Virus record (IMG/VR): IMGVR_UViG_3300034196_000061
Span: 1-60,045 of that record
Reading direction: 5' to 3' (one strand)
From: a virus
DNA: 60,045 nt
The notes under the pieces are model-generated. The model ran no database searches, was not told the origin of the DNA, and worked only from the letters and a program-made list of their open reading frames with translations. This document shows, piece by piece, positions 46,796 to 59,529 of the stretch. Positions within the stretch are counted from its first letter, which is position 1; each line of letters begins with the position of its first letter. The translations under genes and the position numbers were made by a program.

Positions 46796-46946
46796 GGGCC
46801 GGATCGCGCCGGATCGCAGTCCGTCCCACCGGCTTAAAGTCCGTCCTGCCACATCGCGGCGCTGTGCTGGGCTTTACACATACGTCAAAATGACAGATAA
46901 TTTCCATGTCGCGGCAATGGTGTCGCGGCAATCCGGAGGACGAGTG

Positions 46947-47060: not shown

Positions 47061-47100
47061 CGAGTAGGAGATTCAGCGGACGGAAATCAAGGTGGGCACA

Positions 47101-47373
47101 ATGGAGAACCAGAACAACACCGGGTCATCCCGCGGCACGCCGGAAAGCGCCGCGTGGTTCCGGGCCGAGTTGGCGGAAATCGGCGAAACACAGTCCGGAT
47201 TGGCGCGGCTGATGAAACGGTGCGGCGACGATCGCGAGCAAGGCAACATCCTTCGCAGCATCCAACGCATGGCCGCAGGTGACGCTCGCATTTCCGGTGA
47301 AATGCGGGTGTTGCTACATTTCCTGCGGACAGGTCGCCGCAAGCGGATGGAACGGGAGCAGTCGGCCGCCTAA
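47101..47373 (+). CDS. Small helix-turn-helix-like protein
   Basis: A 90-residue protein from ATG 47101. AELAEIGETQSGLARLMKRC, then ILRSIQRMAAGDARISGEMR, resembles the DNA-binding helices of small phage regulators ('QSGLARxM... GxxxxS'). A basic tail follows (RTGRRKRMERE). It is preceded by the hairpin region and is a candidate for the GTATAC-site regulator, though this is speculation. Confidence 0.6.
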   Translation: MENQNNTGSSRGTPESAAWFRAELAEIGETQSGLARLMKRCGDDREQGNILRSIQRMAAGDARISGEMRVLLHFLRTGRRKRMEREQSAA

Positions 47374-47681
47374 ACCAGCGCCACGCCGCGGTGGGCGGAT
47401 GATCTGCGGCGCGGGCTCGAGTCGGCCAGCCACGCGCGGTAATCCTGGCCATGCCCCGTCAGGCGGTACTCCCGGAGCGGCCGGCGCGGGGTGGACCCGC
47501 CGGCCTCGCGCATGTCAACAACCTGCCGGTGGTAGGTCCACAGGCTCAAGAAGCGCGCCGCCGGGCGGCCGAGTGCCGGGTGCCAGGACCCGTCGATAGG
47601 CAGCGCCAGGAGCGCCCACCGCTGCTTTCTCGACAGGCCGCGGCCGGCGTGCGACTCGGACGTGACGACAGGCTCCGTCAT
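47370..47681 (-). CDS. Hypothetical protein, likely winged-helix
   Basis: A 103-residue protein from ATG 47681, overlapping the preceding stop by 4 bp. The core (SRKQRWALLALPIDGSWH, then PLREYRLTGHGQDYRAWLAD) resembles small winged-helix proteins that close with a basic wing. It ends convergently with the rightward gene. Confidence 0.58.
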   Translation of the reverse strand: MTEPVVTSESHAGRGLSRKQRWALLALPIDGSWHPALGRPAARFLSLWTYHRQVVDMREAGGSTPRRPLREYRLTGHGQDYRAWLADSSPRRRSSAHRGVALV

Positions 47682-48250
47682 CCGGCCGCCGCCTCCGCCG
47701 CCAGCGCCGCCGCTACCTTGGCCCGCATGTCGGCTTCGCTGTTCATGTTTCCTCTGATCTCCAACCACTGGCCGCCTTCGTCCAAGCAAGGCGCGACCAA
47801 AAGGAAGCCATCCCGGGAGCCGTGCCGAATCAGCGCCGGGAAGCGGTATACCTCGGCGATCCTGGCCACGTAGGCGCGGAGCTCGGGGGCCGTGTGGGCG
47901 TCGGGACGCTTCGGGTCTATCCAGATTTGTAGGCAGTCAAGCGGCACGTCGTTGGCCAAGATCGTGTCAAGCATCGGGTCAACTATATATCCGGCGAAAT
48001 CGGGCCTTTTTAGATTATCGGCATGTTCATCGAACAACCAACGGCACGACCACGCTCTACAGGGAAGGGGCCTGGTTTTGTAAATAGAGCACCCGGTTGC
48101 CCGGACATGCTTGCACTTTTCTCCGGCGAGCTTCTTTCCATCAGCCAACTCGACCGGCACAATAGTACAGCAAGCCGTACACGATCCGCAGGACCTTCCG
48201 CGCCTCGGCTCTCCAAATATTGCAAACCCTGGACTTGAGTGTTCCGCCAC
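47678..48250 (-). CDS. YkgJ-like cysteine-cluster protein
   Basis: A 190-residue protein from GTG 48250. The metal-binding pattern CGSCTACC, CKHVRATGCSIYKTRPLPCR with a conserved Tyr and Trp matches YkgJ/UPF0153-type zinc- or iron-chelating proteins. The C-terminal part is helical (MRAKVAAALAAEAAAG). The role in phages is unknown; it may modify a protein or bind host factors. Confidence 0.75.
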   Translation of the reverse strand: MAEHSSPGFAIFGEPRRGRSCGSCTACCTIVPVELADGKKLAGEKCKHVRATGCSIYKTRPLPCRAWSCRWLFDEHADNLKRPDFAGYIVDPMLDTILANDVPLDCLQIWIDPKRPDAHTAPELRAYVARIAEVYRFPALIRHGSRDGFLLVAPCLDEGGQWLEIRGNMNSEADMRAKVAAALAAEAAAG

Positions 48251-48251
48251 A

Positions 48252-48434
48252 TCAGGCCGCCTTTGATCTGTCCCTAGATGGCGAACGCCGCTTTGCGGAA
48301 ACGTCAGCGCTGATCCATTCGGTGACGATATGCCTCAAAAACCACGACAGAGTCCTGTCGTCAGCTTGGCATAGCTTTTCCAAATATTCTTTGTCTTCCT
48401 CGTGGATTTTTAGGCATACGGTTGTTAGTGACAC
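48252..48434 (-). CDS. Small RHH-like protein
   Basis: A 60-residue protein with ATG at 48434. TTVCLKIHEEDKEYLEKLCQ, then DRTLSWFLRHIVTEWIS, fits a ribbon-helix-helix: short strand, then two helices. It is the first gene behind the GTATAC pair at 48464-48478 and could be a regulator. Confidence 0.6.
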   Translation of the reverse strand: MSLTTVCLKIHEEDKEYLEKLCQADDRTLSWFLRHIVTEWISADVSAKRRSPSRDRSKAA

Positions 48435-48463
48435 GGCAAAATCCCCGCTATGGTAGAATCCGA

Positions 48464-48478
48464 ATATACACGGTATAC
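48464..48478. promoter_or_regulatory. Operator-like element ATATAC-ACG-GTATAC
   Basis: Same 6-3-6 geometry as the other sites, 30-44 bp upstream of the leftward start at 48434, with one hexamer degenerate. Confidence 0.55.
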
Positions 48479-48498
48479 CTTATGCCGGCAAGCGACCA

Positions 48499-48798
48499 TC
48501 AGTTGTAGCCCCGAAGCGCGAGCTCGCGCCGGCCAGCCTCAGTCAAAAACCAGACCGACAGCGCCGGCTCCCACATAACAAGCATCTCGTCTTCAAGTTT
48601 AGTAATCACGTTTGACCGGATGCCACGCTCCCGAAGCCACCCCGGGGAGCAACCAGCCGCTCCGCCCTGGCCGAGCGCAACCAAGGCGCGGAGCGGGCCG
48701 CCCGCCAGCGCCGCCGCGATCCCGGGCACCTTCGGCCGGGCTCGGCTCCCGTTGAATTGGCGCCGAGTTGGCGCCGCAGCATTACCGCCGTCTGGCAT
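48499..48798 (-). CDS. Small protein with winged-helix-like end
   Basis: A 99-residue protein from ATG 48798, 2 bp after the upstream stop. The Ala/Gly-rich front is followed by RERGIRSNVITKLEDEMLVM and a final WFLTEAGRRELALRGYN, the 'LTExGRxxL' wing of many winged-helix proteins. Possibly a small transcriptional modulator. Confidence 0.65.
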   Translation of the reverse strand: MPDGGNAAAPTRRQFNGSRARPKVPGIAAALAGGPLRALVALGQGGAAGCSPGWLRERGIRSNVITKLEDEMLVMWEPALSVWFLTEAGRRELALRGYN

Positions 48799-48800
48799 TA

Positions 48801-49280
48801 TCAACCCCCCGCCCGAACCTCGATGTAGCTATATAAGTAGTGCGCCCCACCACGACGGCGGTTTGCATTTATAAAACCATCAGCCCTTAGCCTTGTAAGA
48901 CCGTTGCTAAGGTCTTTTCTTTGTTTGTCGGTTACAATACCAGTGAATACGGCTCTGGCAATAGCTCTGGATGTCATGGCTCCGTTATTCTGTAGTTGCT
49001 CAATAATTAGCTCTCGCAACTCAAGCGCCCCGGTACGTTTCGGCGGTCGCAGCGGCTTGCGCTCCGGCGCGGGCAGGGGCAGGGGGTTGGTGCGGACGGC
49101 GTGGGCAGTGCCAGGGGCCGGGCCGGGCAGGCGGAGCGGGCGGGCGGGGGAGGCTGGCGCCGGGCTTTCCGGGCCGCCGCCGGTGGGGAGGATGTGGACA
49201 CGGCCGGTCGCAGGGTCATGGACGATTTCGCACGCGCCCTCAGTCTCGTAGAGGGTGCCATTTATCATCACCCGGATCAT
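48801..49280 (-). CDS. Winged-helix protein with Pro-rich linker
   Basis: A 159-residue protein from ATG 49280, which overlaps the previous stop (ATGA). Front: RVMINGTLYETEGACEIVHD. A Pro/Ala linker follows, then ELRELIIEQLQNNGAMTSRA and LTRLRADGFINANRRRGGAH, a clear winged-helix. A DNA-binding regulator is likely. Confidence 0.65.
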   Translation of the reverse strand: MIRVMINGTLYETEGACEIVHDPATGRVHILPTGGGPESPAPASPARPLRLPGPAPGTAHAVRTNPLPLPAPERKPLRPPKRTGALELRELIIEQLQNNGAMTSRAIARAVFTGIVTDKQRKDLSNGLTRLRADGFINANRRRGGAHYLYSYIEVRAGG

Positions 49281-49684
49281 GGGCTCTGGCGGCGCCGCGG
49301 CTTCGCATTGCCTACAAGCATCCAAATTGCAGAATAGCTGAGATACTGAAAGGTCATTGTCTTTTGAAAATAGTGTCCATCAAGCTTCAACACCACATCG
49401 TCGTTGAGTCTATGGACCTCAGAAACAATCTTTGTGGACCAAAGGGGCTTATTCCGACCTAATTCGTCCTTTAGCTGTTGCCGAGTTTCTATTCTCACGA
49501 CATGCCAAAGCGTTTTCCCGAGCCTTCCGCGGTGCTCTAGCTTGCTGCCGACGACGATTTGCCCCTTATGAAAAAATACCGGATCATCTTCAGGCTCTGG
49601 CTTGATCTCCGGGTAGACCACAAAAGGCAGCTTCCCCCGGAGCTTCGCCGGGGGGTCCTCTTGCTTTTTGGCCAAAGCTGTCAT
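49277..49684 (-). CDS. Hypothetical protein
   Basis: A 135-residue protein coupled to both neighbours by ATGA overlaps. A beta-rich core (PFVVYPEIKPEPEDDPVFFH, GQIVVGSKLEHRGRLGKTLW) and a basic end. No family recognised. Confidence 0.68.
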   Translation of the reverse strand: MTALAKKQEDPPAKLRGKLPFVVYPEIKPEPEDDPVFFHKGQIVVGSKLEHRGRLGKTLWHVVRIETRQQLKDELGRNKPLWSTKIVSEVHRLNDDVVLKLDGHYFQKTMTFQYLSYSAIWMLVGNAKPRRRQSP

Positions 49685-49959
49685 CGCTCAATCGCTTTCA
49701 TAGCAGCGGCAAGCCTCTCTGCAAAACCGTCATCGTCGCATTTGATCCCGAGCGATACAGGATCAATCTCTCTTCCGTTGGCCTTGTCAATCTCTTGGAG
49801 TGCTTTGGAAATTGCTTCCCGTTCCTCTTTCACGATGGCTTGAAGTCTCAAAAACTCGGCCAAAATAGCATGGCACTCCCTGAGTCTGGTTTGCATATCT
49901 ACGATCGGGTTTGTTGTATATTTGAAGCTTTCTTTGCGGTATGCTTTAATCTTTATCAT
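49681..49959 (-). CDS. Helical coiled-coil-like protein
   Basis: A 92-residue protein from ATG 49959, chosen because ACAGGAA lies directly upstream; a longer frame to 50022 would overlap the previous gene by 38 bp. It consists mainly of one long helix (RLQAIVKEEREAISKALQEI). Unknown function. Confidence 0.63.
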   Translation of the reverse strand: MIKIKAYRKESFKYTTNPIVDMQTRLRECHAILAEFLRLQAIVKEEREAISKALQEIDKANGREIDPVSLGIKCDDDGFAERLAAAMKAIER

Positions 49960-49984
49960 TTCCTGTTTCCTCGCTTCATGTCGT

Positions 49985-50251
49985 TTATCTATCTCCCCAA
50001 ATGTTCTTGTTGCACCACTCAATAAACTTAGCCGCCTGAGTATCTTTGTTTACCTTCTCTGTCTCATTGCACAGATTGAATACCTCAACAGCGGTTGGCA
50101 TCTCGCGTTCGTCTGTGCCAGTGCTCCGCTTGTATTGAGATTTCAACTTCGGTTGCTGCGATCCCCACAACATGCAGGATTGCCACGCCTCGGTTGCGAT
50201 GTCAGGGGTGCTCTCGGGCATTAGGGTTGGGCGTTTACGACCGGTCGTCAT
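49985..50251 (-). CDS. Small hypothetical protein
   Basis: An 88-residue protein from ATG 50251. A polar, basic front and an acidic/helical end (AKFIEWCNKNIWGDR). It overlaps the membrane-protein stop by 17 bp. No family recognised. Confidence 0.58.
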   Translation of the reverse strand: MTTGRKRPTLMPESTPDIATEAWQSCMLWGSQQPKLKSQYKRSTGTDEREMPTAVEVFNLCNETEKVNKDTQAAKFIEWCNKNIWGDR

Positions 50252-50447
50252 AGCGAATCGACGCGATGAAGGTCATAATGCAGACGCCAATCGCCAAGCC
50301 CGGGGAAAAGTAAATTGCAAGCGCGGCGACATAACCGGGAACAAGCCAATAGTTCCCGCCGGATATGAAAACAATCACCGTCAACGCCGCCGCTAAAATT
50401 GCAATCGCTAATATCAAAAGCGCAAAACCGAACAGAAGAATCTTCAT
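50235..50447 (-). CDS. Two-span inner-membrane protein
   Basis: A 70-residue hydrophobic protein with segments FALLILAIAILAAALTVIVF and AALAIYFSPGLAIGVCIMTF. The N-terminus is short and positively charged. Candidate membrane function such as superinfection exclusion; unproved. Confidence 0.66.
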   Translation of the reverse strand: MKILLFGFALLILAIAILAAALTVIVFISGGNYWLVPGYVAALAIYFSPGLAIGVCIMTFIASIRYDDRS

Positions 50448-50458
50448 CTTAGTGTCTC

Positions 50459-50668
50459 CTATAACCCTAGAACTTCCCGGCGTATGCTTGACAGGGCCAT
50501 GGATGCAACGTCGCTTTCAAGTCTCAGCCTTTCGTAATTTACTTCTTGTTCAATCCTATTTTTCGTCACACCTTGCACGTTCCTCATTCCTGCGTTTTCC
50601 AAAGCCATCCGGGCTTCGGCCGCCGCTTCGGCGAATGGTCTAATTTTATCCCATTGGTCGTCTGTCAT
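50459..50668 (-). CDS. Small helical hypothetical protein
   Basis: A 69-residue protein from ATG 50668 (MTDDQWDKIRPFAEAAAEAR). Mainly helical and charged. It stands 37 bp behind a GTATAC-type element, so it probably heads a unit with the membrane-protein gene. Confidence 0.63.
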   Translation of the reverse strand: MTDDQWDKIRPFAEAAAEARMALENAGMRNVQGVTKNRIEQEVNYERLRLESDVASMALSSIRREVLGL

Positions 50669-50704
50669 GTAAACTCCCTGGTTATTTGGGCTTACTAGTT
50701 TATG

Positions 50705-50719
50705 ATATACCTTGTATTC
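50705..50719. promoter_or_regulatory. Degenerate operator ATATAC-CTT-GTATTC
   Basis: Two imperfect hexamers at 9 bp spacing, 37-51 bp upstream of the leftward start at 50668. The least conserved of the well-placed sites. Confidence 0.4.
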
Positions 50720-50753
50720 TATGGAAACGCACCACGCAATCCGTGATTGAAAA

Positions 50754-51002
50754 TTAGTTTTGATTGGATGGAATGGATTCAATAACTTCCATGCTGGAAA
50801 ACTTGACAAGCTTGATTGGATGCCCGGTCTGCCGGTGAATTTCGATCACGGTTGATCTCAGGCTCTCAACGCGGTTCGCGTCTGCCCCGATAAGCGGCAT
50901 GTAAATTAGCTGTCCTTCCATGACCATTTGCGCCGCACATATTCCCTCCCCTCCGTCCGGCTCTGTGGAAACCCAGGCGAACATCTCGGTAATCTTTGGC
51001 AT
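50754..51002 (-). CDS. Hypothetical protein
   Basis: An 82-residue protein from ATG 51002. A likely beta/alpha fold (FAWVSTEPDGGEGICAAQMV, LIYMPLIGADANRVESLRST). It sits 5 bp after the upstream stop. No family recognised. Confidence 0.64.
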   Translation of the reverse strand: MPKITEMFAWVSTEPDGGEGICAAQMVMEGQLIYMPLIGADANRVESLRSTVIEIHRQTGHPIKLVKFSSMEVIESIPSNQN

Positions 51003-51007
51003 GTCGG

Positions 51008-51229
51008 TTATTTTTCCTCTTGCTTGGCGAGCTTGGCGAGACAGCGCGGGCAGGTTACGGCGTTGCCAGGATAGGTCGCCCACCCGTTGCCGCGGTCGCC
51101 CGGGGCCGCGCCGCAGACGGCGCGCGTCCACCCGTGGCCGAGCGCCACCGCATGGAAGCGCTGTCCCTTGTCGCGCTCTGCGCCACTGGCGCACCGTCCC
51201 GACATTTTGAGGGGGAGATAGTCAGTCAT
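51008..51229 (-). CDS. Small Cys/His protein, likely zinc-binding
   Basis: A 73-residue protein. MSGRCASG, HAVALGHGWTRAVCGAAPGD and NAVTCPRCLAKLAKQ provide four or more Cys plus His in a zinc-ribbon-like spacing; the final CPRC pair is characteristic. Coupled by ATGA to the previous gene. Confidence 0.63.
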   Translation of the reverse strand: MTDYLPLKMSGRCASGAERDKGQRFHAVALGHGWTRAVCGAAPGDRGNGWATYPGNAVTCPRCLAKLAKQEEK

Positions 51230-51435
51230 CTTCTGTCGTCTGTGACCGTCAACATCGCGCCAGCCTTGGCGAACGGCTCGCGGCGGATTGCCGTCTTGGC
51301 GGCCGGTGACAGGGCTTCTTGCTGGTCCTCTTCAAGCGCTATGGACTGGCCTTGATCGACCATGAATTTCAATGCCTCGAATTCGCTGTTTGACAGCGTG
51401 ATCCGATATCCGCCCTTCAACCGCGTGACCTTCAT
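51226..51435 (-). CDS. Small hypothetical protein
   Basis: A 69-residue protein with ATG at 51435, behind a GGGGCGACTC leader related to the leader of neighbouring genes. KVTRLKGGYRITLSNSEFEA, then a helical and polar end. No family recognised. Confidence 0.62.
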   Translation of the reverse strand: MKVTRLKGGYRITLSNSEFEALKFMVDQGQSIALEEDQQEALSPAAKTAIRREPFAKAGAMLTVTDDRR

Positions 51436-51447
51436 ATGAGTCGCCCC

Positions 51448-51657
51448 TTACTGAGTCGATCTTGACAAAATGTCGCTGACAACAACCTGCATAACAGAAA
51501 ATCTTGTCATGTCATCCTCACTGGCCAAACGCCGGGCTTCCTGAGTCGCGGCATCTTTGGATTGGTGGACGGAAAGCACCCGCACGATACCGCCGGATTT
51601 CGCGACCTTGAAAACGGCCCACGACTGTTGCCAGCTTTCCGATGTTGCTTCGCTCAT
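51448..51657 (-). CDS. Small hypothetical protein
   Basis: A 69-residue protein with ATG at 51657, preceded by the leader AGGACGCGGCTCA. A compact alpha/beta fold is suggested by WAVFKVAKSGGIVRVLSVHQ and KDAATQEARRLASED. Function unknown. Confidence 0.63.
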   Translation of the reverse strand: MSEATSESWQQSWAVFKVAKSGGIVRVLSVHQSKDAATQEARRLASEDDMTRFSVMQVVVSDILSRSTQ

Positions 51658-51681
51658 TGAGCCGCGTCCTGCAAACGGGGG

Positions 51682-51861
51682 CTATCGGGAACGCTTGGGC
51701 AGGCCGTCGCGGAACGCGCGCTCAATCTCTATCGTCGCGCGGCCGTGCTCTATGAACTCCGCCCACTCGTCCGCCGCGTTCTGCTGCTCTGGCGACAGGT
51801 CCGGAAGCGGCGCGGCTCCGGTTGCGCTAGTGCCGTCGCTGTAGTGCTTAGTCTCGATCAT
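51682..51861 (-). CDS. Small acidic protein
   Basis: A 59-residue protein from ATG 51861, which overlaps the preceding stop (ATGA); this decides the start against earlier Mets. It is acidic and helical (SPEQQNAADEWAEFIEHGRA). Function unknown. Confidence 0.62.
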   Translation of the reverse strand: MIETKHYSDGTSATGAAPLPDLSPEQQNAADEWAEFIEHGRATIEIERAFRDGLPKRSR

Positions 51862-52043
51862 GCTGCCGTCCTCATGTTCCATGCTGCGTCCGCGTCGTTC
51901 GCGTCGGATTTGTAGGCAGTCCGCGCTCCGCAGGACGGACATTCGACCCACGCCCATTGCTCGGCATCCCAATGCCGACCAGGGGCGGCACCGCAGTGTG
52001 GGCAGGCGGCCAGCGCGGTAGCGATCTTTGGCTTGCGGGGCAT
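51858..52043 (-). CDS. Lar-like zinc-ribbon protein, second copy type
   Basis: A 61-residue protein from ATG 52043 behind the leader CCCCGGAGGATGACAG. CPHCGAAPG and VECPSCGART form the two zinc Cys pairs, with a Trp-Asn helix at the end (DADAAWNMRT), as in Lar/restriction-alleviation proteins. Compare 7990-8208. A role against host restriction is plausible. Confidence 0.72.
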   Translation of the reverse strand: MPRKPKIATALAACPHCGAAPGRHWDAEQWAWVECPSCGARTAYKSDANDADAAWNMRTAA

Positions 52044-52059
52044 CTGTCATCCTCCGGGG

Positions 52060-52275
52060 TTATGCGGACTGGTCGCCAAGCGCGGCGCGCCCGGACGGCG
52101 TTATCTCGTAATGCGGCTCCCGAGCGTAGGGCCGGAACCTCGCCAGCCCCGCCCAGCAAACGGCGTCTAGGGTGGCCTTCCGGTAGCCGTAGACATGGCA
52201 AGCAGTCTCGGGGACCGGACCGTCCGCCAGGATCGCAAGCACGCGGCGGCGGGCAGGGGTGAGCTTGGCATCCAT
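52060..52275 (-). CDS. Small winged-helix protein
   Basis: A 71-residue protein from ATG 52275. AKLTPARRRVLAILADGPVP, CHVYGYRKATLDAVCWAGLA and ITPSGRAAL follow the winged-helix layout with closing 'TPxGRxAL' wing. Probable DNA-binding regulator; compare 48499-48798. Confidence 0.66.
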   Translation of the reverse strand: MDAKLTPARRRVLAILADGPVPETACHVYGYRKATLDAVCWAGLARFRPYAREPHYEITPSGRAALGDQSA

Positions 52276-52276
52276 C

Positions 52277-52549
52277 TCAGCGCCGTCCGCGCTTCTCTTT
52301 CTGTGCCTCGTCACGGCTGCCATCCTCGTTGGCAAACAAGAGGTGGTTTGTCCGCTTTGCGTGTGCGAGTGCTTCCTTTGCAAAGACCGCACACCGCTCA
52401 CGGGCAGACTCGAAAATCTCTACGTGTTCCGGGTTGCTGTGATCGAACTTTCGTCCCATGACCTCAAGCATATCTATTGCGAGCGAAAGTTTCGCTTCTG
52501 CGCTTCCTGCGTTTTCACAGACTTCCTCGATAATCTGTCGGATGTGCAT
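52277..52549 (-). CDS. Helical hypothetical protein
   Basis: A 90-residue protein with ATG at 52549. Two helices (IIEEVCENAGSAEAKLSLAI, RERCAVFAKEALAHAKR) and a basic end. No family recognised. Confidence 0.63.
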   Translation of the reverse strand: MHIRQIIEEVCENAGSAEAKLSLAIDMLEVMGRKFDHSNPEHVEIFESARERCAVFAKEALAHAKRTNHLLFANEDGSRDEAQKEKRGRR

Positions 52550-52567
52550 CCCTAGTCTCCTATTTCT

Positions 52568-52783
52568 TTAAGGCGTTGCCGAAGCGCGCAGCATGGCAAT
52601 GCCAGCGGCAATAGCCTCTGCCTCGGCACGCTCGATCGTCGCCAGCAACTCAGACCGGGCCGCCTCATATGCAGCGCCGGCCGCTTCGATTCTGCTTTGT
52701 TGACCAGAACGAATCGCTTCGAAGCGATCATCGGACGCCTTCACAAACAACTTCATCGTGTGAGCGGTGAGGCTCGGGATCAT
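52568..52783 (-). CDS. Small helical protein
   Basis: A 71-residue protein from ATG 52783, which overlaps the upstream stop and follows a second CCCCGGAGGATGAC leader. Ala/Arg/Glu-rich helices (EAAGAAYEAARSELLATIER). Unknown function. Confidence 0.62.
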   Translation of the reverse strand: MIPSLTAHTMKLFVKASDDRFEAIRSGQQSRIEAAGAAYEAARSELLATIERAEAEAIAAGIAMLRASATP

Positions 52784-53019
52784 GTCATCCTCCGGGGTTC
52801 TTGGGACTCGTCGTCGGGCCACATGGCGGCACGTACACCGGCCACCTGTTCCCGCAATGTCTCGACTAACTGGTCCGGCACGCCGGCCAGTGCGTCAGGG
52901 AAGGTCAACAGCATTTCAAGGCTACTGACCAACAATCCAACCGCGGTGTTTTGCGCTTCTAGGCTGGCCGCCATCGCGAGCGGATGGAGTGTGCGAACAG
53001 GTGCGGGTTTGCGCGCCAT
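52780..53019 (-). CDS. Small hypothetical protein
   Basis: A 79-residue protein from ATG 53019 (MARKPAPVRTLHPLAMAASL). Mainly one amphipathic helix with an acidic end. Coupled by ATGA to the next gene. Confidence 0.62.
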   Translation of the reverse strand: MARKPAPVRTLHPLAMAASLEAQNTAVGLLVSSLEMLLTFPDALAGVPDQLVETLREQVAGVRAAMWPDDESQEPRRMT

Positions 53020-53042
53020 GGCTCCGCCTTTCAAGATCGGGG

Positions 53043-53267
53043 TTAGTGCACGCGCTCGCGCAGCATCCGGCGCGCGAGCTCGCGCTGCTCCGGGTCTGCG
53101 GTTCCGGCGCGGTCGTTGATGCCGTTCCGCCTGCCATGCGCGTACGCAATGCTGCCGTCATCGCGCGGCGGTCGGCCGGCTATGCCGTCCTGATATCCGG
53201 CAACCATGTCGTCGGCCTCGGCCGGCGACGGGTGCAGCGGATCGAACGGCGGGGCGTTGCTGGTCAC
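53043..53267 (-). CDS. Small hypothetical protein
   Basis: A 74-residue protein from GTG 53267 behind an AGGACGCGACTCA leader. HPSPAEADDMVAGYQDGIAG, then AYAHGRRNGINDRAGTAD. The 'GYxDGxxGxPP...YxHGxRNG' pattern recurs in many phage proteins, as I recall, without known function. Confidence 0.66.
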   Translation of the reverse strand: MTSNAPPFDPLHPSPAEADDMVAGYQDGIAGRPPRDDGSIAYAHGRRNGINDRAGTADPEQRELARRMLRERVH

Positions 53268-53297
53268 TGAGTCGCGTCCTTTCTGGTCAGAAGATGA

Positions 53298-53603
53298 CTA
53301 AATGCGTTTCCATTCGCTTTGATAAACCGTGCAAGCCAATCGGTTGTCCTCTCCTGCACGGGCGCGAGTCGCCTCTTCCAGCGTGTATCCTGCGGAAACG
53401 TGTTCCCAGCGCGGAGGATTCGGATATCTCGCCCGAACGGTTTGACGCTCGCCGCTGGTGTCGGTCAGGGTCAACACAAAGTCGGTTCCGTCAATCTTGT
53501 AACTGACGGTCACGCTGGCGCCGCGGGTCACGTAGAATCCAACTATATCGTCTATCAGCGTGTCGATGTTCTTCCCGTGGAAGGTGTGGCAAGTGTCGCT
53601 CAT
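53298..53603 (-). CDS. Hypothetical protein
   Basis: A 101-residue protein from ATG 53603 behind the AGGACGCGACTCA leader; a GTATAC pair lies 29-43 bp upstream. It opens MSDTCHTFHG and has a beta-rich core (SVTVSYKIDGTDFVLTLTDT). No family recognised. Confidence 0.66.
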   Translation of the reverse strand: MSDTCHTFHGKNIDTLIDDIVGFYVTRGASVTVSYKIDGTDFVLTLTDTSGERQTVRARYPNPPRWEHVSAGYTLEEATRARAGEDNRLACTVYQSEWKRI

Positions 53604-53622
53604 TGAGTCGCGTCCTGTTGTT

Positions 53623-53862
53623 TCAGTTATCGTATACACAGTATACACCTATGGCAAGCTGCCGGCAGGTGATTGGTTTGCAAATCGGGGTGCCGGACGG
53701 GGTTTGCGTCCACTCGCACGCGGGCCAAAGGGGGTGCGACATGCCGGCCAGGATCGTGGCGCAGTGGCCCTTGCACCGGGGGTCCGGCGGCGGCGGCGCG
53801 GCGCCGGCCGAGCCCGCCAGGGCCGCCAGAGTCGCGGCCAGGGCGAGAGTCGACCGGATCAT
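53623..53862 (-). CDS. Small secreted Cys-rich protein
   Basis: A 79-residue protein from ATG 53862, overlapping the preceding stop (ATGA). A signal peptide (MIRSTLALAATLAALAGSAG, then AAP) would be cleaved to leave a 50-residue mature part with five Cys (DPRCKGHC, ACEWTQ, CKPITC, YCVYDN). Exported small Cys proteins in phages may act in the periplasm or against other phages; the role here is unknown. Confidence 0.65.
   Translation of the reverse strand: MIRSTLALAATLAALAGSAGAAPPPPDPRCKGHCATILAGMSHPLWPACEWTQTPSGTPICKPITCRQLAIGVYCVYDN
53632..53646. promoter_or_regulatory. Operator-like element GTATAC-ACA-GTATAC
   Basis: A perfect pair at 9 bp period, 29-43 bp upstream of the start at 53603. 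It lies inside the last codons of the gene 53623-53862, so coding and regulatory information overlap there. Confidence 0.62.
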
Positions 53863-54101
53863 GAGTCGCACGCCACCGGGCTCTGCCGCCACCCGCTGGC
53901 GAGCTCTGCCGCCGAGCGAGCATCCCCACGGTAGCCGGCCACCCAGCAATAGGCGCCCAACGATCCGGCCGGATAGGGGTTGCCGCTCCCGCTCCCGCCG
54001 AGCCCGGCCGCCCGCCCGGCCCGGTACGCGCCGGCCGCGGTCGCCTGGAGTCGCCGAGCCTCGAAACCCCGCCGGGTGTCGTACCGGTTCCGCACGGTCA
54101 C
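53859..54101 (-). CDS. Small basic protein
   Basis: An 80-residue protein from GTG 54101, which overlaps the upstream stop (GTGA). Arg/Ala/Gly-rich (RRLQATAAGAYRAGRAAGLG) with one Trp/Tyr-rich segment (AYCWVAGYRGDARSAAELAS). No family recognised. Confidence 0.58.
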   Translation of the reverse strand: MTVRNRYDTRRGFEARRLQATAAGAYRAGRAAGLGGSGSGNPYPAGSLGAYCWVAGYRGDARSAAELASGWRQSPVACDS

Positions 54102-54388
54102 GACTCCCCGCCAGCGAAACGGGGGCGGAAACAATTCAGGAGTCGGCCCGTATCCGTGTCGATATTATTTACGATGCCGGAAACATCGTGGAGGAAATTC
54201 AGGTCATCGGCGGCGAGAAGAGCGGCCAAGCGAAGCCGGCACCCGTTGGCGTGAGTCGCCAGGATGGCCAGCGACAGCGCCAGCGGGTCGCACTCGATCC
54301 CGTAATCTCGATACAGGCCGATCGCCCGGCCCGTGATTGCGGCAATCGTCTCCCGCTCCTGATAGGTGGCGTCCGTGCTCATGGGCAT
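54098..54388 (-). CDS. Helical hypothetical protein
   Basis: A 96-residue protein from ATG 54388, ending in an overlap with the next gene. ERETIAAITGRAIGLYRDYG, then LAILATHANGCRLRLAALLA. Function unknown. Confidence 0.63.
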   Translation of the reverse strand: MPMSTDATYQERETIAAITGRAIGLYRDYGIECDPLALSLAILATHANGCRLRLAALLAADDLNFLHDVSGIVNNIDTDTGRLLNCFRPRFAGGES

Positions 54389-54417
54389 AGTTCGTCCCCT
54401 TGGGCTGTGGTTGAGGA

Positions 54418-54441
54418 CTCCCCGGAACCCTGCCCGGGGAG
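54418..54441 (-). terminator. Terminator-like hairpin, CTCCCCGG arms
   Basis: CTCCCCGG (54418-54425) pairs with CCGGGGAG (54434-54441). It follows the leftward gene ending at 54457 by 16 bp. No U-run is present. The same arms recur at 59750-59771. Confidence 0.45.
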
Positions 54442-54456
54442 GCTTCAATCACGGCG

Positions 54457-54675
54457 CTACCAGCAACGCATGAGGTATTCCCGGGGAACGGTGCAGCGCC
54501 TGACTCCGGTGATCGACAAAGCGCGGGCCAAATCATCGTCCGGGATTTCGTAGATTCCCCTGTGCTTCGGTTGCCTGGGTGAGTCGAGCGACACAAACCA
54601 GCACGGGCGCGCCGAGCTCCGGCCAACAAGCTTTTCCCGGGCGCGGTGAGAAGCGGCCATGACGAAGGTTGCCAT
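54457..54675 (-). CDS. Small basic hypothetical protein
   Basis: A 72-residue protein from ATG 54675 (MATFVMAASHRAREKLVGRS). RPCWFVSLDSPRQPKHRGIY, then a helical DDLARALSITG segment. No family recognised. Confidence 0.6.
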   Translation of the reverse strand: MATFVMAASHRAREKLVGRSSARPCWFVSLDSPRQPKHRGIYEIPDDDLARALSITGVRRCTVPREYLMRCW

Positions 54676-54677
54676 GG

Positions 54678-54917
54678 TCAGACCTTCGCGGGGAGGCGGT
54701 AGGAGTCCAGCCAGCGCGGGCCGTGGGTGTTGCGGAGGGTGTGCAGGATGCAACCCGTCATCTCGTCATTGCCCAGCGGGCCGCGCCACGGTCTGGCGTT
54801 ATACCAGTAGACCATGGCCAGGGTTTCCTTCCATTTCTTCCCGTGCGCGTCTGCGAAGGCTTGCACTGCGGCGACTTGCTCCGGAGTCAACTCCGGATAG
54901 GTTTCCTTGCGGGCCAT
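54678..54917 (-). CDS. Small hypothetical protein
   Basis: A 79-residue protein from ATG 54917 (MARKETYPELTPEQVAAVQA). FADAHGKKWKETLAMVYWYN and NDEMTGCILHTLRNTHGPRW are well-formed helices with aromatic faces. I recall this 'FAAxxGxxWKxxLxxxWxxA' pattern in many phage and plasmid proteins of unknown function. Confidence 0.68.
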   Translation of the reverse strand: MARKETYPELTPEQVAAVQAFADAHGKKWKETLAMVYWYNARPWRGPLGNDEMTGCILHTLRNTHGPRWLDSYRLPAKV

Positions 54918-54919
54918 GG

Positions 54920-55135
54920 TCAAGCGAGCTCCGGATAAGAGGACTCGGCGTAGCGGGCCAGATCGCCAAGAGCCTCGGCCTTCGTCCGGTACTGCGGGCC
55001 GATCACTGCCGGGCTGGCGGGGGTTGTCCCCCCGCCATTCCAATCGAGACAGACGAACCGCCAAAGAGTCGGCGCACAACGACTCACGCCAAGGTACTTG
55101 AATCGCGTCGGGGAGTAGTCGGGCCAGTTTGCCAT
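54920..55135 (-). CDS. Small hypothetical protein
   Basis: A 71-residue protein from ATG 55135. YSPTRFKYLGVSRCAPTLWR, FVCLDWNGGGTTPASPAVIG and KAEALGDLARYAES. The mixture of aromatic strand and terminal helix resembles other accessory proteins in this array. Confidence 0.62.
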   Translation of the reverse strand: MANWPDYSPTRFKYLGVSRCAPTLWRFVCLDWNGGGTTPASPAVIGPQYRTKAEALGDLARYAESSYPELA

Positions 55136-55137
55136 GG

Positions 55138-55299
55138 TTAGCGGGTCCACCTTACGTTTTCACCAATCGGAAGATTACGGGTGCAGTCGTTGAATCGACT
55201 GGCAAGCTTGCGCGTGAACACCCAACCGTGACGGTTTGACCAAAACTTAGTACCGCGTGGCGTGTCGCACGCAATAAACCACTTCGTTGTGCTGGCCAC
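55138..55299 (-). CDS. Small hypothetical protein
   Basis: A 53-residue protein from GTG 55299, chosen because the upstream gene ends at 55304; the longer frame to 55341 would overlap it. ASTTKWFIACDTPRGTKFWS, then a basic RKLASRFNDCTRNLP segment. Function unknown. Confidence 0.56.
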   Translation of the reverse strand: MASTTKWFIACDTPRGTKFWSNRHGWVFTRKLASRFNDCTRNLPIGENVRWTR

Positions 55300-55303
55300 A
55301 GCC

Positions 55304-55492
55304 CTACCCCTCAACCACGCGGACGGGGCAAAGCGGGTCACGGTGGCGCATGGTTGCCGCGTGTGCCTCGGCGGACTCCTTGGTTTTGAAATCCGGGAGG
55401 ATCACCCACAACCACTTTCCATTTGCCTCCACTTCGATCCGCCACACCTTGCGTTTGTGCTGGCGTGCGGCGCTTGTAGCAGGTTTGGCCAC
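55304..55492 (-). CDS. Small basic hypothetical protein
   Basis: A 62-residue protein from GTG 55492, two bases from the upstream stop. It opens AKPATSAARQHKRKVWRIEV and continues NGKWLWVILPDFKTKESAEA, a strand-rich core followed by a helix. Function unknown. Confidence 0.58.
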   Translation of the reverse strand: MAKPATSAARQHKRKVWRIEVEANGKWLWVILPDFKTKESAEAHAATMRHRDPLCPVRVVEG

Positions 55493-55493
55493 G

Positions 55494-55706
55494 TCAGGAT
55501 TCCTTGTTAAGAGCGTCAACGATGGCGCGGGCCAGCCTGTCAATGCCGGCGGGAGTCAGGTTGAACCGTCCGAATTCGTTGGCGGGAGCTCGCGCGATGA
55601 TCGCCAGGGGAATTCCGTTGAGGGAAAGCCGCCGGCCACCGTCCAACGTCCAAACACCGGGACGGGCAGTTGCGTCGGCTTCGTCATGCTCTGCGTTCTC
55701 TGTCAT
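55494..55706 (-). CDS. Small hypothetical protein
   Basis: A 70-residue protein from ATG 55706. RPGVWTLDGGRRLSLNGIPL, then NLTPAGIDRLARAIVDALN. The start is acidic. A short protein of this shape is common next to DUF932 genes. Confidence 0.62.
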   Translation of the reverse strand: MTENAEHDEADATARPGVWTLDGGRRLSLNGIPLAIIARAPANEFGRFNLTPAGIDRLARAIVDALNKES

Positions 55707-55721
55707 GTCGGCTATCTTGCA

Positions 55722-55749
55722 GAAAGCCGGGCTTGATTGCTCGGCTTTC
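55722..55749. terminator. Stem-loop GAAAGCCG/CGGCTTTC
   Basis: Eight-bp perfect arms (55722-55729 and 55742-55749) in the 84-bp gap below the DUF932 gene. No U-run on either strand; a processing or weak termination site is possible. Confidence 0.4.
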
Positions 55750-55760
55750 CGGAGGATAGC

Positions 55761-55783
55761 GGGGGGAGGGATTAGCTCCCCCC
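55761..55783 (-). terminator. G+C-rich hairpin after DUF932 gene
   Basis: GGGGGGAG (55761-55768) pairs with CTCCCCCC (55776-55783), 8 bp downstream of the DUF932 stop on the minus strand. Strong stem without U-tract. Confidence 0.5.
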
Positions 55784-55790
55784 GGTCGCC

Positions 55791-56672
55791 CTATGCCGCG
55801 TGCTTGATCTCGGCCATCCGCTTTGCAAGGTGGTGCAGCGCTGCATTGAGTTTGATGTCTTGGTCAATGCCGTTGATCGCCCGGGATGTGACCCGGCGGC
55901 TTTGATTGTTGGCGTTGCGGGCTCGGCCGGACAAGCCGCCGCGGATGACATTCTCCTGTATCACGTTGTGCGTGGTCCAAATGTCTTGGGCATTGTCATC
56001 CCTCCGGCGGATGTCAAGCAACCGCTCCGGCCGGATTGCCTCGGCCATTGACGACTCTTCTTTGTCGCCGAACCGGAGCATGTGCGCGGCTTCCGCCATG
56101 GCCATGCGTTCGTCACGGTTGAGGGCGATCCGGGACCACTCGGCGGCTTGCGTGACAGCTTGGCGGGAGTCTTCTATGACCTCGAAAGAACCGTCGATAA
56201 CCTTGTCAACCACGTTCCCCTTGTGCGGGACTTTGACCGATCCGGTTTCTTCGTCCATGCAGACCAAGCCGTTAAGGCAGATCAAACGAAAAGTTCCGGC
56301 CATAAGCTTGTAAGCCGACGTTCCATCATGCGCGTTCACCAAAATAACTTCCGGGACCGCGACGCCCAAGCCGCCGCGCTCCATGTCCTCAATCCTGCGA
56401 AACCGCAGCATGTGCTTTGTGAATTCGGCCTTGCCGGGGGTGCGGCTTTTCCCCTGCGTCGCCTTGACCGGGAGGAAACCCTGCGCCCGCATTCCGTCCA
56501 ACACTTCAAGAGTCGGGATGTAGGCGAACCGGGCGGAACGGGACTCGTGGGCCTCCGTCGCGAACACGCTCGGCGCGTAGTGCATTATTTGGTCATTCGT
56601 CAGCGCGACCATCGCGCCGTTGCGCGGGGTGCTCAGGTTGCGGGCAAGGAAGCGGTCGGAAAACGTAGACAT
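55791..56672 (-). CDS. DUF932 family protein
   Basis: A 293-residue protein from ATG 56672. The front (SVFATEAHESRSARFAYIPT, TLEVLDGMRAQGFLP), the core MLRFRRIEDMERGG with VPEVILVNAHDGTSAYKLMA and GTFRLICLNGLVC, and the later helical part agree with DUF932, a family common on plasmids and phages with unknown function. It heads its unit behind a GTATAC pair and a 7+1+7 palindrome. Confidence 0.86.
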   Translation of the reverse strand: MSTFSDRFLARNLSTPRNGAMVALTNDQIMHYAPSVFATEAHESRSARFAYIPTLEVLDGMRAQGFLPVKATQGKSRTPGKAEFTKHMLRFRRIEDMERGGLGVAVPEVILVNAHDGTSAYKLMAGTFRLICLNGLVCMDEETGSVKVPHKGNVVDKVIDGSFEVIEDSRQAVTQAAEWSRIALNRDERMAMAEAAHMLRFGDKEESSMAEAIRPERLLDIRRRDDNAQDIWTTHNVIQENVIRGGLSGRARNANNQSRRVTSRAINGIDQDIKLNAALHHLAKRMAEIKHAA

Positions 56673-56713
56673 GGACAGCGCCTTTCGCGGCGGAGGGGTT
56701 GCGGGGTAGGCGG

Positions 56714-56728
56714 AAGGTCATTGACCTT
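56714..56728. promoter_or_regulatory. Palindrome AAGGTCA-T-TGACCTT
   Basis: A perfect 7+1+7 inverted repeat 42-56 bp upstream of the DUF932 start and 16 bp from the GTATAC pair. Possible second operator. Confidence 0.45.
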
Positions 56729-56744
56729 GGTTAGTGAGAGGATG

Positions 56745-56759
56745 GTATACAATGTATAC
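56745..56759. promoter_or_regulatory. Operator-like element GTATAC-AAT-GTATAC
   Basis: A perfect pair, GGTATAC-AAT-GTATACC inverted repeat, 73-87 bp upstream of the DUF932 gene. On the minus strand TATAC overlaps a likely -10 box. Confidence 0.62.
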
Positions 56760-56840
56760 CCGAATGCCAATGGGGTATTTTTGTGGATCGGTATTTTTTT
56801 TGGGGAGCGGGGAGGGGTGGCGGGAGATATGGGCCAAAAG

Positions 56841-56869
56841 AAAGCCCGTAGGGTGCGCCTACGGGCTTT
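56841..56869 (-). terminator. Rho-independent terminator
   Basis: AAAGCCCGTAGG (56841-56852) pairs with CCTACGGGCTTT (56858-56869), a 12-bp perfect stem with a 5-nt loop. On the minus strand CTTTTGG follows. It ends the unit that finishes at 56898. Confidence 0.78.
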
Positions 56870-56897
56870 GTGGTGCGGGTGGTGGGGTGGTGCTGGT

Positions 56898-57122
56898 CTA
56901 GATGTCAGCGAAGCCCAAGGGCGCGGGGATGATCCCCTGTTGCTCTATCTGCGCCTTGCCTCGCTCGAAAGCCGCCATGCTGGGATATACCAGTTCCTGC
57001 CAGCCGGTCGCCCAGGTGTTGACCGCGAGCACTCGGCCATCTTTCAGCGTCTTGCGGAGGATCAAACGCTCCCCGTTGTCGGCCGGTTTGGTTGCCTGGT
57101 TCTTTGTTTCCGTGGTTGTCAT
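56898..57122 (-). CDS. Small hypothetical protein
   Basis: A 74-residue protein with ATG at 57122 (MTTTETKNQATKPADNGERL). A short strand-helix core (LAVNTWATGWQELVYPSMAA) and a final helix. Last gene before a strong terminator. Confidence 0.65.
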   Translation of the reverse strand: MTTTETKNQATKPADNGERLILRKTLKDGRVLAVNTWATGWQELVYPSMAAFERGKAQIEQQGIIPAPLGFADI

Positions 57123-57126
57123 GTTG

Positions 57127-57477
57127 TCAGGCTTTCACTGTGGTTGTGGGATAGCTATTCACGCCAAGCTTGACTCCGGAACCCTCCGTCCCGCCCGGAC
57201 CGTCTTTCTTGCCGCTCTGCCATCGGGCCGGAGCACAGACAAGGCGATACTCGTAAAGTTGAGACGGTATCCCAAGGCTTGCCATACGGTCTTGACGTGC
57301 CATCGCTTCGCGTTCCGTGGAAAAGGTTTGGTCAGGCGGAAAATCTGTGGCCATGTCAGGGTGAACCGACAGCAACCATAAATTTCCGGTCACTGTAGGG
57401 GCGTGTTTTTCAATTATTTCATTGTCACGCCGCGCCTTGTTTACGATTGTATCTAGCTTTTGATCCGTGGTTGTCAT
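57127..57477 (-). CDS. Hypothetical protein
   Basis: A 116-residue protein with ATG at 57477. DTIVNKARRDNEIIEKHAPT, then LWLLSVHPDMATDFPPDQTF. The front is helical, the rest mixed. No family recognised. Confidence 0.63.
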   Translation of the reverse strand: MTTTDQKLDTIVNKARRDNEIIEKHAPTVTGNLWLLSVHPDMATDFPPDQTFSTEREAMARQDRMASLGIPSQLYEYRLVCAPARWQSGKKDGPGGTEGSGVKLGVNSYPTTTVKA

Positions 57478-57644
57478 GGGTTACGATCCTCTTTGTTGCG
57501 TGCAATCCAGCGAAGCGCGGAGTCTCTAGCGGCTGTGTCCGATGTTTCCCCATAGCCGCGCGTCAAAATTTTTCCGCTTTCGCTTTCAACTTCGAAGCAG
57601 TGATTTCTGTCGAGTGAAAACCATATCCGGAAGGTTATCGGCAC
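57474..57644 (-). CDS. 56-residue hypothetical protein
   Basis: GTG 57644 to TGA 57474, the stop overlapping the next ATG (ATGA) and the start 3 bp after the upstream stop. VPITFRIWFSLDRNHCFEVE, then DTAARDSALRWIARNKEDR. Coupling on both sides supports it. Confidence 0.6.
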   Translation of the reverse strand: MPITFRIWFSLDRNHCFEVESESGKILTRGYGETSDTAARDSALRWIARNKEDRNP

Positions 57645-57647
57645 AGC

Positions 57648-57842
57648 TTATCCTTTCACGATTTTGCATTTCTCGATTGCGGCGCGGGCCATAGGTCCTG
57701 GATCACGATGGTTGTCCCGATGCCAGATTGTGCGATTGAATCCAGTGGCGGGGGAAACAACACGCACATACCACGGGCGACCGGACATAAACGAAACCAA
57801 AGCAACCCTTCCTTCAACATTAACAGTTTGCGTTCGGTTCAT
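57648..57842 (-). CDS. Small hypothetical protein
   Basis: A 64-residue protein with ATG at 57842. The core is beta-like (VNVEGRVALVSFMSGRPWYV) with a final helix (ARAAIEKCKIVKG). It is the first gene after the 57857-57904 element. Confidence 0.64.
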   Translation of the reverse strand: MNRTQTVNVEGRVALVSFMSGRPWYVRVVSPATGFNRTIWHRDNHRDPGPMARAAIEKCKIVKG

Positions 57843-57856
57843 AAATCACCTTCGCC

Positions 57857-57904
57857 TTTACTCTGTTAGCTTCCCAAGTATACAGGGTATACTAACAGAG
57901 TAAA
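57857..57904. promoter_or_regulatory. GTATAC pair inside a 13-bp inverted repeat
   Basis: TTTACTCTGTTAG (57857-57869) pairs with CTAACAGAGTAAA (57892-57904); between them lies GTATAC-AGG-GTATAC (57878-57892). It is the most elaborate version of the motif and sits 15-62 bp before the leftward start at 57842. It could form a cruciform or RNA hairpin. Confidence 0.62.
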
Positions 57905-57974
57905 GTAACGTTTTCGTGATCTGTGGTTTGTGCTGTTAGATTTCTCTTGACAGTGCTTGAACGTTGTTTCCGGG

Positions 57975-58184
57975 CTAAGTGACCGCTTGGGCCAGCCTGC
58001 GCCACGCGCGTTTTACCAGGGGGCCAATGCTGTGCTTGTCCCGCACAAGGTATGTGTTCGGTTGCGCTCTTGGAGTCTCGGTATCTCCCGCAAGGTCTAG
58101 CAGGCGATTCCATGCCTGCGCTCTTAGTTCGGGACTGGCGAATTCAATCCGGGACATGCGGGTCAGGAATTCAGAATCGCCCAT
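57975..58184 (-). CDS. Small hypothetical protein
   Basis: A 69-residue protein from ATG 58184 (MGDSEFLTRMSRIEFASPEL). RAQAWNRLLDLAGDTETPRA, then a basic SIGPLVKRAWRRLAQAVT end. It is 5 bp below the upstream stop. Unknown function. Confidence 0.63.
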   Translation of the reverse strand: MGDSEFLTRMSRIEFASPELRAQAWNRLLDLAGDTETPRAQPNTYLVRDKHSIGPLVKRAWRRLAQAVT

Positions 58185-58188
58185 GGCG

Positions 58189-58617
58189 CTATACGCTCCC
58201 GCCCCACGGCGCTGCGTCGTACTCGGGGAGATTGGCGACGATCCGGCGCGCCACGTTGCCGCACATGGTATCGAGCTCCCGCCATTCGGGGGAGTCGTGC
58301 ACCGGGTCCTCACTGCATTGATACAGGAGACATTCAAGGGCCTTGTAACAGGCAATCTCATTGCGGAGCGGGATTTCGCTGCTCTGCCAAATGTAGCCGG
58401 CATGGGCTGTTAGGTCCGGAGTCTTGTGATAGCGCCCGGCAACCGCGCGTTCGTTCAATTCGAAAAGCTTCCGGCCGATTTCGTCCATAGCCTTCAGATC
58501 ATCGCCGATGGTTTGGGCGCTTTGCGCCAGCGTCACGCCCATGAACGATCGGGCGTGCTTCGCGATGATGTACACGGCGCGGTGCATGGTGGTATCGGAC
58601 ACGATGAAAGCGGACAT
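58189..58617 (-). CDS. Conserved plasmid/phage hypothetical protein
   Basis: A 142-residue protein with ATG at 58617. SAFIVSDTTMHRAVYIIAKH opens a helical protein; GRKLFELNERAVAGRYHKTP and KALECLLYQCSEDPVHDSPE follow. I recall this 'MSAFIVSxxTxxRxV' family beside DUF932 genes on plasmids. Function unknown. Confidence 0.74.
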   Translation of the reverse strand: MSAFIVSDTTMHRAVYIIAKHARSFMGVTLAQSAQTIGDDLKAMDEIGRKLFELNERAVAGRYHKTPDLTAHAGYIWQSSEIPLRNEIACYKALECLLYQCSEDPVHDSPEWRELDTMCGNVARRIVANLPEYDAAPWGGSV

Positions 58618-58620
58618 GGT

Positions 58621-59136
58621 TTAGAGTCCCTCCGCCGGTTTTGGCGCGGTATCCCGCGCGGCGTTGCGGGCGGCTTGCCAGGAGTCTTCGCCTTGGGCTT
58701 CGCGATCGGCCTTGCGCTCTTCATAGGCAAGCTTGCGCAGAGTCCATAACTCGGCGATTGCCTTGCAGGATTCGGGGACGCCAGCGCTGTAGCGGTTCAT
58801 CCAATCTTTGGTTTGCTGTGCGTCCATGTACTCGTGCAATCCGGTATGTTGGACGTGGTTGTCATCGTCCAAATACATGGCCATGCCAAACCGGCAGTAG
58901 GTGCCGGCCTTCGGCTTGTTCCAGGGGTTCCCCGCTTTCTTGGGGTTCGTGGTTTGGCTGACAAATCGGCAACCGCGCGTCAAGCTGTGCTCAATCCAAT
59001 AGCGGATGCTGCAACGGAGGCGGAACCCGTAGGGGTAATCTGCGACCGTGTAAGCCGTTTCCGGGCTTGTGTGGCCAATAAGCAGGTTGGGGGAGTCGGT
59101 TGCTTGTGCTGGCGAGTCGGTCTGTGCGTCGGACAT
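58621..59136 (-). CDS. Conserved plasmid/phage hypothetical protein
   Basis: A 171-residue protein from ATG 59136. TSPETAYTVADYPYGFRLRC, SIRYWIEHSLTRGCRFVSQT and WNKPKAGTYCRFGMAMYLDD are conserved blocks in an accessory family that I recall next to DUF932 genes on many plasmids. The charged C-terminus is helical. Function unknown. Confidence 0.76.
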   Translation of the reverse strand: MSDAQTDSPAQATDSPNLLIGHTSPETAYTVADYPYGFRLRCSIRYWIEHSLTRGCRFVSQTTNPKKAGNPWNKPKAGTYCRFGMAMYLDDDNHVQHTGLHEYMDAQQTKDWMNRYSAGVPESCKAIAELWTLRKLAYEERKADREAQGEDSWQAARNAARDTAPKPAEGL

Positions 59137-59209
59137 GGTTTCGCCTTTCCCGGTTAGGGCCAAAAGGTTCGGGGTGGTGTGGTTGTGGTGTGGTGGTGGT
59201 GGTCGGGCC

Positions 59210-59240
59210 GCTCCGGAGCTCGACAGGTTGCTCCGGAGCT
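59210..59240. repeat. Repeated palindrome GCTCCGGAGCT
   Basis: The 11-bp block occurs at 59210-59220 and 59230-59240; each copy contains the palindrome AGCTCCGGAGCT or nearly so. It lies between two leftward genes and may act as attenuator. Confidence 0.45.
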
Positions 59241-59257
59241 GGTGGTTTAGCTTTGGG

Positions 59258-59527
59258 CTAGGCTTTGTCCCGCGTGATAGCGTTGACGTAGACCCGGGCT
59301 TTCGTGGTCGGGTGGTAGCGGTGGCGGAAGGTGTGGCGGCATGTCGTGCCCGTGCGTTCGCTTCCCATGTACTGCCAGGACTCGCCACCGTGCTCTTGCC
59401 TCAGATCGGCTCCGTCGCCCAGGTTCTTGGCGCGAAGCCGGCGGGCAAACTCCGCCCATGCCGCGTGCCATTCTGGCGTTCCGTGGTCCAAGCAATATGG
59501 AACGGGATCGGGTGCTGTCGTGGTCAT
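59258..59527 (-). CDS. Hypothetical protein
   Basis: An 89-residue protein from ATG 59527. Segments VPYCLDHGTPEWHAAWAEFA, RRLRAKNLGDGADLRQEHGG and RHRYHPTTKARVYVNAITRD, with several His and Cys. Its start lies 2 bp from the upstream stop. No family recognised. Confidence 0.66.
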   Translation of the reverse strand: MTTTAPDPVPYCLDHGTPEWHAAWAEFARRLRAKNLGDGADLRQEHGGESWQYMGSERTGTTCRHTFRHRYHPTTKARVYVNAITRDKA

Positions 59528-59529
59528 GT

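Follow-up and report, generated by a model that had tools for sequence, protein, structure and literature searches.

Predicted dispersed GTATAC operators of an orphan antitoxin-like ribbon-helix-helix repressor on a phage-plasmid

Antitoxin-type proteins with a ribbon-helix-helix (RHH) fold usually control only their own toxin-antitoxin pair. In mycobacteriophage L5, many copies of one site, the stoperators, are spread across the genome, also inside coding blocks, and serve a helix-turn-helix (HTH) repressor. The current study concerns a 60,045-base stretch of viral DNA (IMG/VR record IMGVR_UViG_3300034196_000061; this whole stretch is called the window), in which the hexamer pair GTATAC-N3-GTATAC recurs ahead of leftward accessory gene blocks. 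These sites are predicted to be the operators of one small RHH protein encoded at 48252-48434 on the minus strand, a candidate assignment to which we give a probability of about 0.72, and they are most likely operators through which an orphan, antitoxin-like repressor of a phage-plasmid acts at scattered places. Unlike the L5 stoperators, the exact sites in the window lie only at promoters of one strand.

CopASO, the antitoxin of the ParESO-CopASO pair of prophage CP4So in Shewanella oneidensis, has in common with the window the RHH fold and operator palindromes separated by N3. According to the report on it (PMC8706911), CopASO binds its own promoter at a pair of inverted repeats, GTANTAC-(N)3-GTANTAC, the dissociation constant being about 16 nM, and also represses a second promoter, which lies on a megaplasmid. 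Its palindromes are 7 bp long with a 10-bp period, whereas those of the window are 6 bp long with a 9-bp period, one central base per palindrome making the difference. CopASO is autoregulated, which is only predicted for the window protein, and it has a partner toxin and a tail for binding it, whereas the window protein has 60 amino acids and no toxin was found behind its gene. Moreover, CopASO acts at its own and one megaplasmid promoter, whereas the window sites stand at about seven promoters.

Two further RHH proteins are described in a review (PMC3920265). CcdA is stated there to read a 6-bp palindrome; in plasmid F we found GTATAC 28 bp ahead of the ccdA start. This is a single exact copy at the ccd promoter, with CcdB as toxin partner, whereas the window has paired sites, and BLASTP detected no similarity between CcdA and the window RHH protein. 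The Omega repressor of Inc18 plasmids (pSM19035) is described as one RHH protein that regulates several plasmid promoters via repeats, with an operator of 7-bp NATCACN repeats (PMC3920265). Omega (1irq) was only a distant structural match to the window protein (Z 5.5, 6% identity in VIA). PrpA was set aside, its motif being different. No report of a GTATAC operator of an RHH protein, CcdA or a phage repressor was found in the open-licence PMC literature.

Distribution of the GTATAC pairs

The hexamer GTATAC occurs 23 times in the window, against 2.35 expected from shuffles. A motif scan of the kind proposed in an earlier note on this DNA returned 18 GTATAC-N3-GTATAC pairs with three or fewer mismatches, where 4.3 were expected and the maximum in 100 shuffles was 10. 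Exact pairs number six, at five places (658, 2255, 2264, 53632, 56745 and 57878); pairs with one mismatch begin at 3848, 5810, 18778 and 48464, and pairs with two at 30510 and 50705. All seven places at which the note had reported a hexamer pair hold the motif, five of them exactly, 48464 with one mismatch and 50705 with two. The copies at 3848, 5810 and 18778 had been overlooked; those at 5810 and 18778 fall within genes and probably arose by chance. The constant 9-bp period was borne out as well, since a scan of spacings from 6 to 30 bp found exact GTATAC pairs at 9 bp (n = 6), at 18 bp within the triple site (n = 1), and at no other spacing. In nine window pairs the two hexamers alone were conserved, the 3-bp spacer and both flanks being variable.

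Seven leftward block starts (at 2210, 612, 57842, 56672, 53603, 50668 and 48434) are headed by these minus-strand sites, in keeping with the claim that they stand mostly at gene-block heads, and the distances, given as about 30–90 bp, were measured as 29–73 bp. The exact operator at 658-672 lies 46 bp ahead of the leftward open reading frame (ORF) 355-612, and the triple operator at 2255-2278, with three GTATAC at a 9-bp period, lies 45 bp ahead of the leftward gene 1425-2210. The RHH gene follows 30 bp after the pair at 48464-48478, which reads ATATAC/GTATAC and overlaps a predicted promoter (TTGCCG-17-TATATT). The weakest of the seven, at 50705-50719 (ATATAC/GTATTC), is 37 bp ahead of the leftward ORF 50459-50668. 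The three remaining exact operators all overlap predicted promoters: 53632-53646 (TTGCCA-17-TACGAT) is 29 bp ahead of the leftward ORF 53298-53603, 56745-56759 (TTGGCA-17-TACCAT) is 73 bp ahead of a leftward DUF932 gene at 55791-56672, and 57878-57892 (TTTACT-16-TATACT) is 36 bp ahead of the leftward ORF 57648-57842. The intergenic one-mismatch pair at 3848-3862, to which no strand was assigned, is an uncertain further site, the nearest leftward ORF being 251 bp away.

All six exact pairs are intergenic and stand 15–85 bp ahead of a leftward start, in zones that make up 6.2% of the window, and none falls in a rightward promoter zone; this placement count used a home-made gene set, from which ORFs g006, g047, g062 and g066 were dropped and to which about 26 were added by hand, including g047. 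An equal density of the motif inside genes or on the other strand, named beforehand as an outcome that would speak against a regulon, was not what was found for the exact pairs. The putative regulon is selective, as no site heads the leftward blocks for replication (start 6089) and recombination (start 46079).

Since the sites are palindromic, a promoter could run from them in either direction. Read leftward, the downstream hexamer takes the place of a -10 box and is preceded by a -35-like TTGNCN. The best leftward -35 matches, 4–8 bp ahead of eight sites, summed to 29 of 48 compared with 22.8 for shuffled flanks (P 0.009), and the rightward matches at the same eight palindromes summed to 22. 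In a consensus promoter scan of the minus strand from 46000 to 60045, four of the six hits were located on sites (48464, 53632, 56745 and 57878), the -10 box lying within the downstream hexamer or at its edge; the consensus scan gave no promoter at 658 or 2255. Repression is favoured over activation in view of the overlap of the sites with the -10 box, since a protein bound to them would mask both this box and the spacer.

The RHH protein and the predicted repression

The 60-amino-acid protein encoded at 48252-48434 begins with GTG, and its gene lies 30 bp behind site 48464, which makes it a candidate autoregulated repressor. The AlphaFold monomer (predicted local distance difference test score, pLDDT, 73) has an extended N-terminus followed by two helices, at residues 12-25 and 29-50, an RHH-like layout; the N-terminal beta-strand cannot pair in a monomer model. 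An RHH/CopG-type fold was supported by both structure searches, whose top matches were RHH proteins. The 50 Foldseek matches listed were mostly of this type, the best being CopASO (6iya, root-mean-square deviation 1.2), and CopASO again came first among the matches listed by VIA (Z 6.4 over 48 residues); ParD and PutA were also among the best fold matches. The nearest solved sequence was the RHH domain of PutA (E 0.12). A profile built from this protein and seven other RHH proteins retrieved 7etr (E 5.5e-7), an entry that the fold search lists as the Shewanella oneidensis SO_1444-SO_1445 complex.

The own promoter of this gene carries paired palindromes separated by N3, as in CopASO/ParD-type antitoxins, at 48464-48478, with one mismatch and a period of 9 instead of 10. 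No C-terminal toxin-binding region is apparent, the protein having 60 amino acids with residues 51-60 at a pLDDT below 50, and no adjoining toxin gene was recognised, the ORF directly behind (47678-48250) being cysteine-rich and without a Pfam match. The missing tail, together with the lack of a recognised toxin gene, gives the protein the look of an orphan antitoxin-type repressor.

In the proposed mechanism, one RHH dimer would recognise each GTATAC, a perfect palindrome, with its two-stranded beta-sheet, and two dimers, or three at 2255, would sit side by side at the 9-bp spacing. As the downstream hexamer doubles as the leftward -10 box, a protein sitting there would obstruct RNA polymerase both at the promoter of the RHH gene itself and at those of about six other accessory blocks. 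The accessory set may in this way be kept silent as long as the phage persists, possibly in plasmid form, and repression might later be lifted. What was observed are the sites with their spacing and their position in leftward promoters, the RHH character of the protein, and GTATAC arrays immediately ahead of unrelated RHH genes elsewhere; from these we infer binding, repression, a joint control of the blocks and the biological role. The same short switch stands ahead of at least six gene blocks and is probably read by one tiny protein, and the results support the suggestion that a local RHH autorepressor code is employed across a phage genome. We hold it an even chance that a toxin-less antitoxin-type RHH autorepressor became a genome-wide silencer, with GTATAC copied into accessory -10 regions, while genes for replication, recombination and the virion stayed free of its control. 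The earlier note had proposed that one repressor or activator controls most of the accessory array. Its single regulator is supported and repression is the predicted mode, with the replication and recombination blocks falling outside. If this holds true, an antitoxin-type repressor has been reused as a global phage regulator, and a protein of only 60 amino acids would link raw sequence to a regulon of many unknown small phage genes.

GTATAC arrays elsewhere and competing explanations

Bacterial and archaeal genomes were scanned for three GTATAC at a 9-bp period, spacers with C as first or G as last base being excluded so as to avoid coding repeats. The scan yielded 44 loci, and in eight of these an RHH-like gene began 1–16 bp behind the array (L291, L292, L313, the FitA-like L324, L303, L310, L326 and L329). 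L291, L292 and L313 are nearly identical and L324 is related to them, leaving about five independent cases. When the RHH genes of six of the eight loci were searched with Pfam, those of L310 and L326 scored above the cut-off, that of L291 just below it, and those of L324, L303 and L329 weakly. Behind the RHH genes of L303, L310, L291 and L324 there are RelE/ParE- or PIN-like ORFs (judged by eye), an arrangement resembling toxin-antitoxin loci, and the RHH proteins of L303 and L310 are 98 and 96 amino acids long. Among 101 viral loci with triple arrays, one (L051) carries an RHH gene, 15 bp from the array. By contrast, an RHH gene adjoined none of 42 viral loci with arrays at a 10-bp period (ORFs read; hidden Markov model from four RHH proteins) and none of 35 with GATATC at 9 bp (ORFs read). 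Some RHH genes of bacteria, archaea and one virus are thus preceded by the GTATAC code with its 9-bp period, which may help to find other RHH-controlled genes. In most of 15 viral records whose arrays are mainly intergenic, the copies are confined to a single place; a spread over the whole genome hence looks peculiar to the window.

L017 was at first assumed to have an RHH neighbour; it received no support from Pfam and was not counted. Collagen-like Gly-Ile-Gln coding runs account for L002, L004, L005 and most of the loci L001-L101, and can mislead motif scans. Five phage fragments (L033, L034, L054, L061 and L078) also carry GTATAC pairs and triples in clusters, and in four of them the arrays lie near a gene starting MK(T/I)xIAxPCM that appears glycosyltransferase-like by eye. 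No RHH_1 match was found in the clustered-array fragments L034, L054, L061 and L078.

A number of observations weigh against the assignment of the sites to the RHH protein. Its match to Pfam RHH_1 (E 0.0055, 17.0 bits) is below the curated cut-off of 20.5, and it has no close relative in viral contigs. A good -35 is absent at 50705 and 3848. Viral triple GTATAC arrays cannot be taken as operators in general, as most are coding Gly-Ile-Gln repeats, and the 15 viral records mentioned above gave one RHH_1 match. The 10-bp and GATATC controls, drawn from viral contigs, are not matched to the GTATAC set, in which eight of the nine RHH-adjacent arrays came from genome contigs. Several genome arrays, moreover, sit at GntR or IclR loci. 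The expectation that the motif would be found in related phages failed for the sequence relatives reached: it occurred in none of 20 records listed (of 30 loci) related by helicase and RecT, and among 50 records listed (of 77 loci) related by terminase, mostly at 45–60% identity, there was a single match with one mismatch. With the motif lacking in these relatives and the RHH protein having no close relative in viral contigs, neither can be footprinted phylogenetically.

Among 18 records of phage relatives, the RHH protein had one weak match (E 0.011). A de novo search for tandem palindromic hexamers in 12 relatives, two of them in part, gave nothing comparable, and TGTACA in three relatives appears to be coding.

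The earlier note had named three DNA-binding candidates. That at 48252 is strongly preferred for its RHH fold, its own adjacent site and its relation to RHH repressors with like operators, whereas the HTH-like proteins at 47101-47373 (plus strand) and 11163-11489 (plus strand; noted as 11295) have little in their favour. The former of these could be a CI-like repressor for which GTATAC-N3-GTATAC forms a single 15-bp dyad; it is small, has an all-helical, low-confidence model and is encoded close to the site cluster. This is rather unlikely, as the protein had no Pfam or NCBIfam match and no relative in viral contigs, and no site adjoins its start. Furthermore, the half-sites are themselves palindromic and a third hexamer stands in register at 2255, which fits tandem RHH dimers better. 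Among 40 window proteins queried against Pfam, a set lying outside the structural genes and many small ORFs, no other convincing regulator was found.

Tandem TGTATACA sites with a 9-bp period adjoin GntR and IclR genes elsewhere, and the window sites might therefore be read by a GntR (FCD)- or IclR-type protein of the host that the phage has borrowed. The GntR and IclR arrays carry T/A flanks around GTATAC, whereas the nine window pairs have no flank preference and do not resemble GntR-FCD operators, making such a reader very improbable. Similarly, the coincidence of the pairs with -10 boxes of leftward promoters would be expected if they were a promoter element alone, i.e. a -10 box with an upstream copy and no dedicated binding protein. 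There is little to be said for this explanation, given that the upstream hexamer, which lies in the promoter spacer, shows the same degree of conservation as that at -10, that the triple site has a third copy, and that the leftward block promoters at 6089 and 46079 lack the motif. Operators of the RHH protein at 48252-48434 are thus the preferred interpretation.

Layout of the window

In the window, the virion genes run rightward, including a terminase (8708-10399), and the replication, recombination and accessory genes run leftward. A RepA_C plasmid replication protein is encoded at 40253-41176 (Pfam E 7e-23), beside phage structural genes. Having both a terminase and RepA_C, i.e. structural genes together with a plasmid replication gene, the window is a phage-plasmid by gene content, its maintenance as a plasmid being putative. 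No exact terminal repeat was found at the window ends, and megablast of positions 44000-60045 against phage and plasmid collections gave no match.

Between the triple operator and a VapE-like helicase gene there is a long region (2280-3940) with few convincing genes, which contains the site at 3848. A possible rightward ORF in this region (2552-2944, plus strand) is divergent from the 2255 site and gave no match in Pfam. The operator at 57878 is flanked by a 14-bp perfect inverted repeat (CTTTACTCTGTTAG / CTAACAGAGTAAAG, at 57856-57905), which occurs once in the window. Repeats of 60 bases (20368-20866) and of 9 bases (35254-35435) were also observed, both inside large rightward ORFs.

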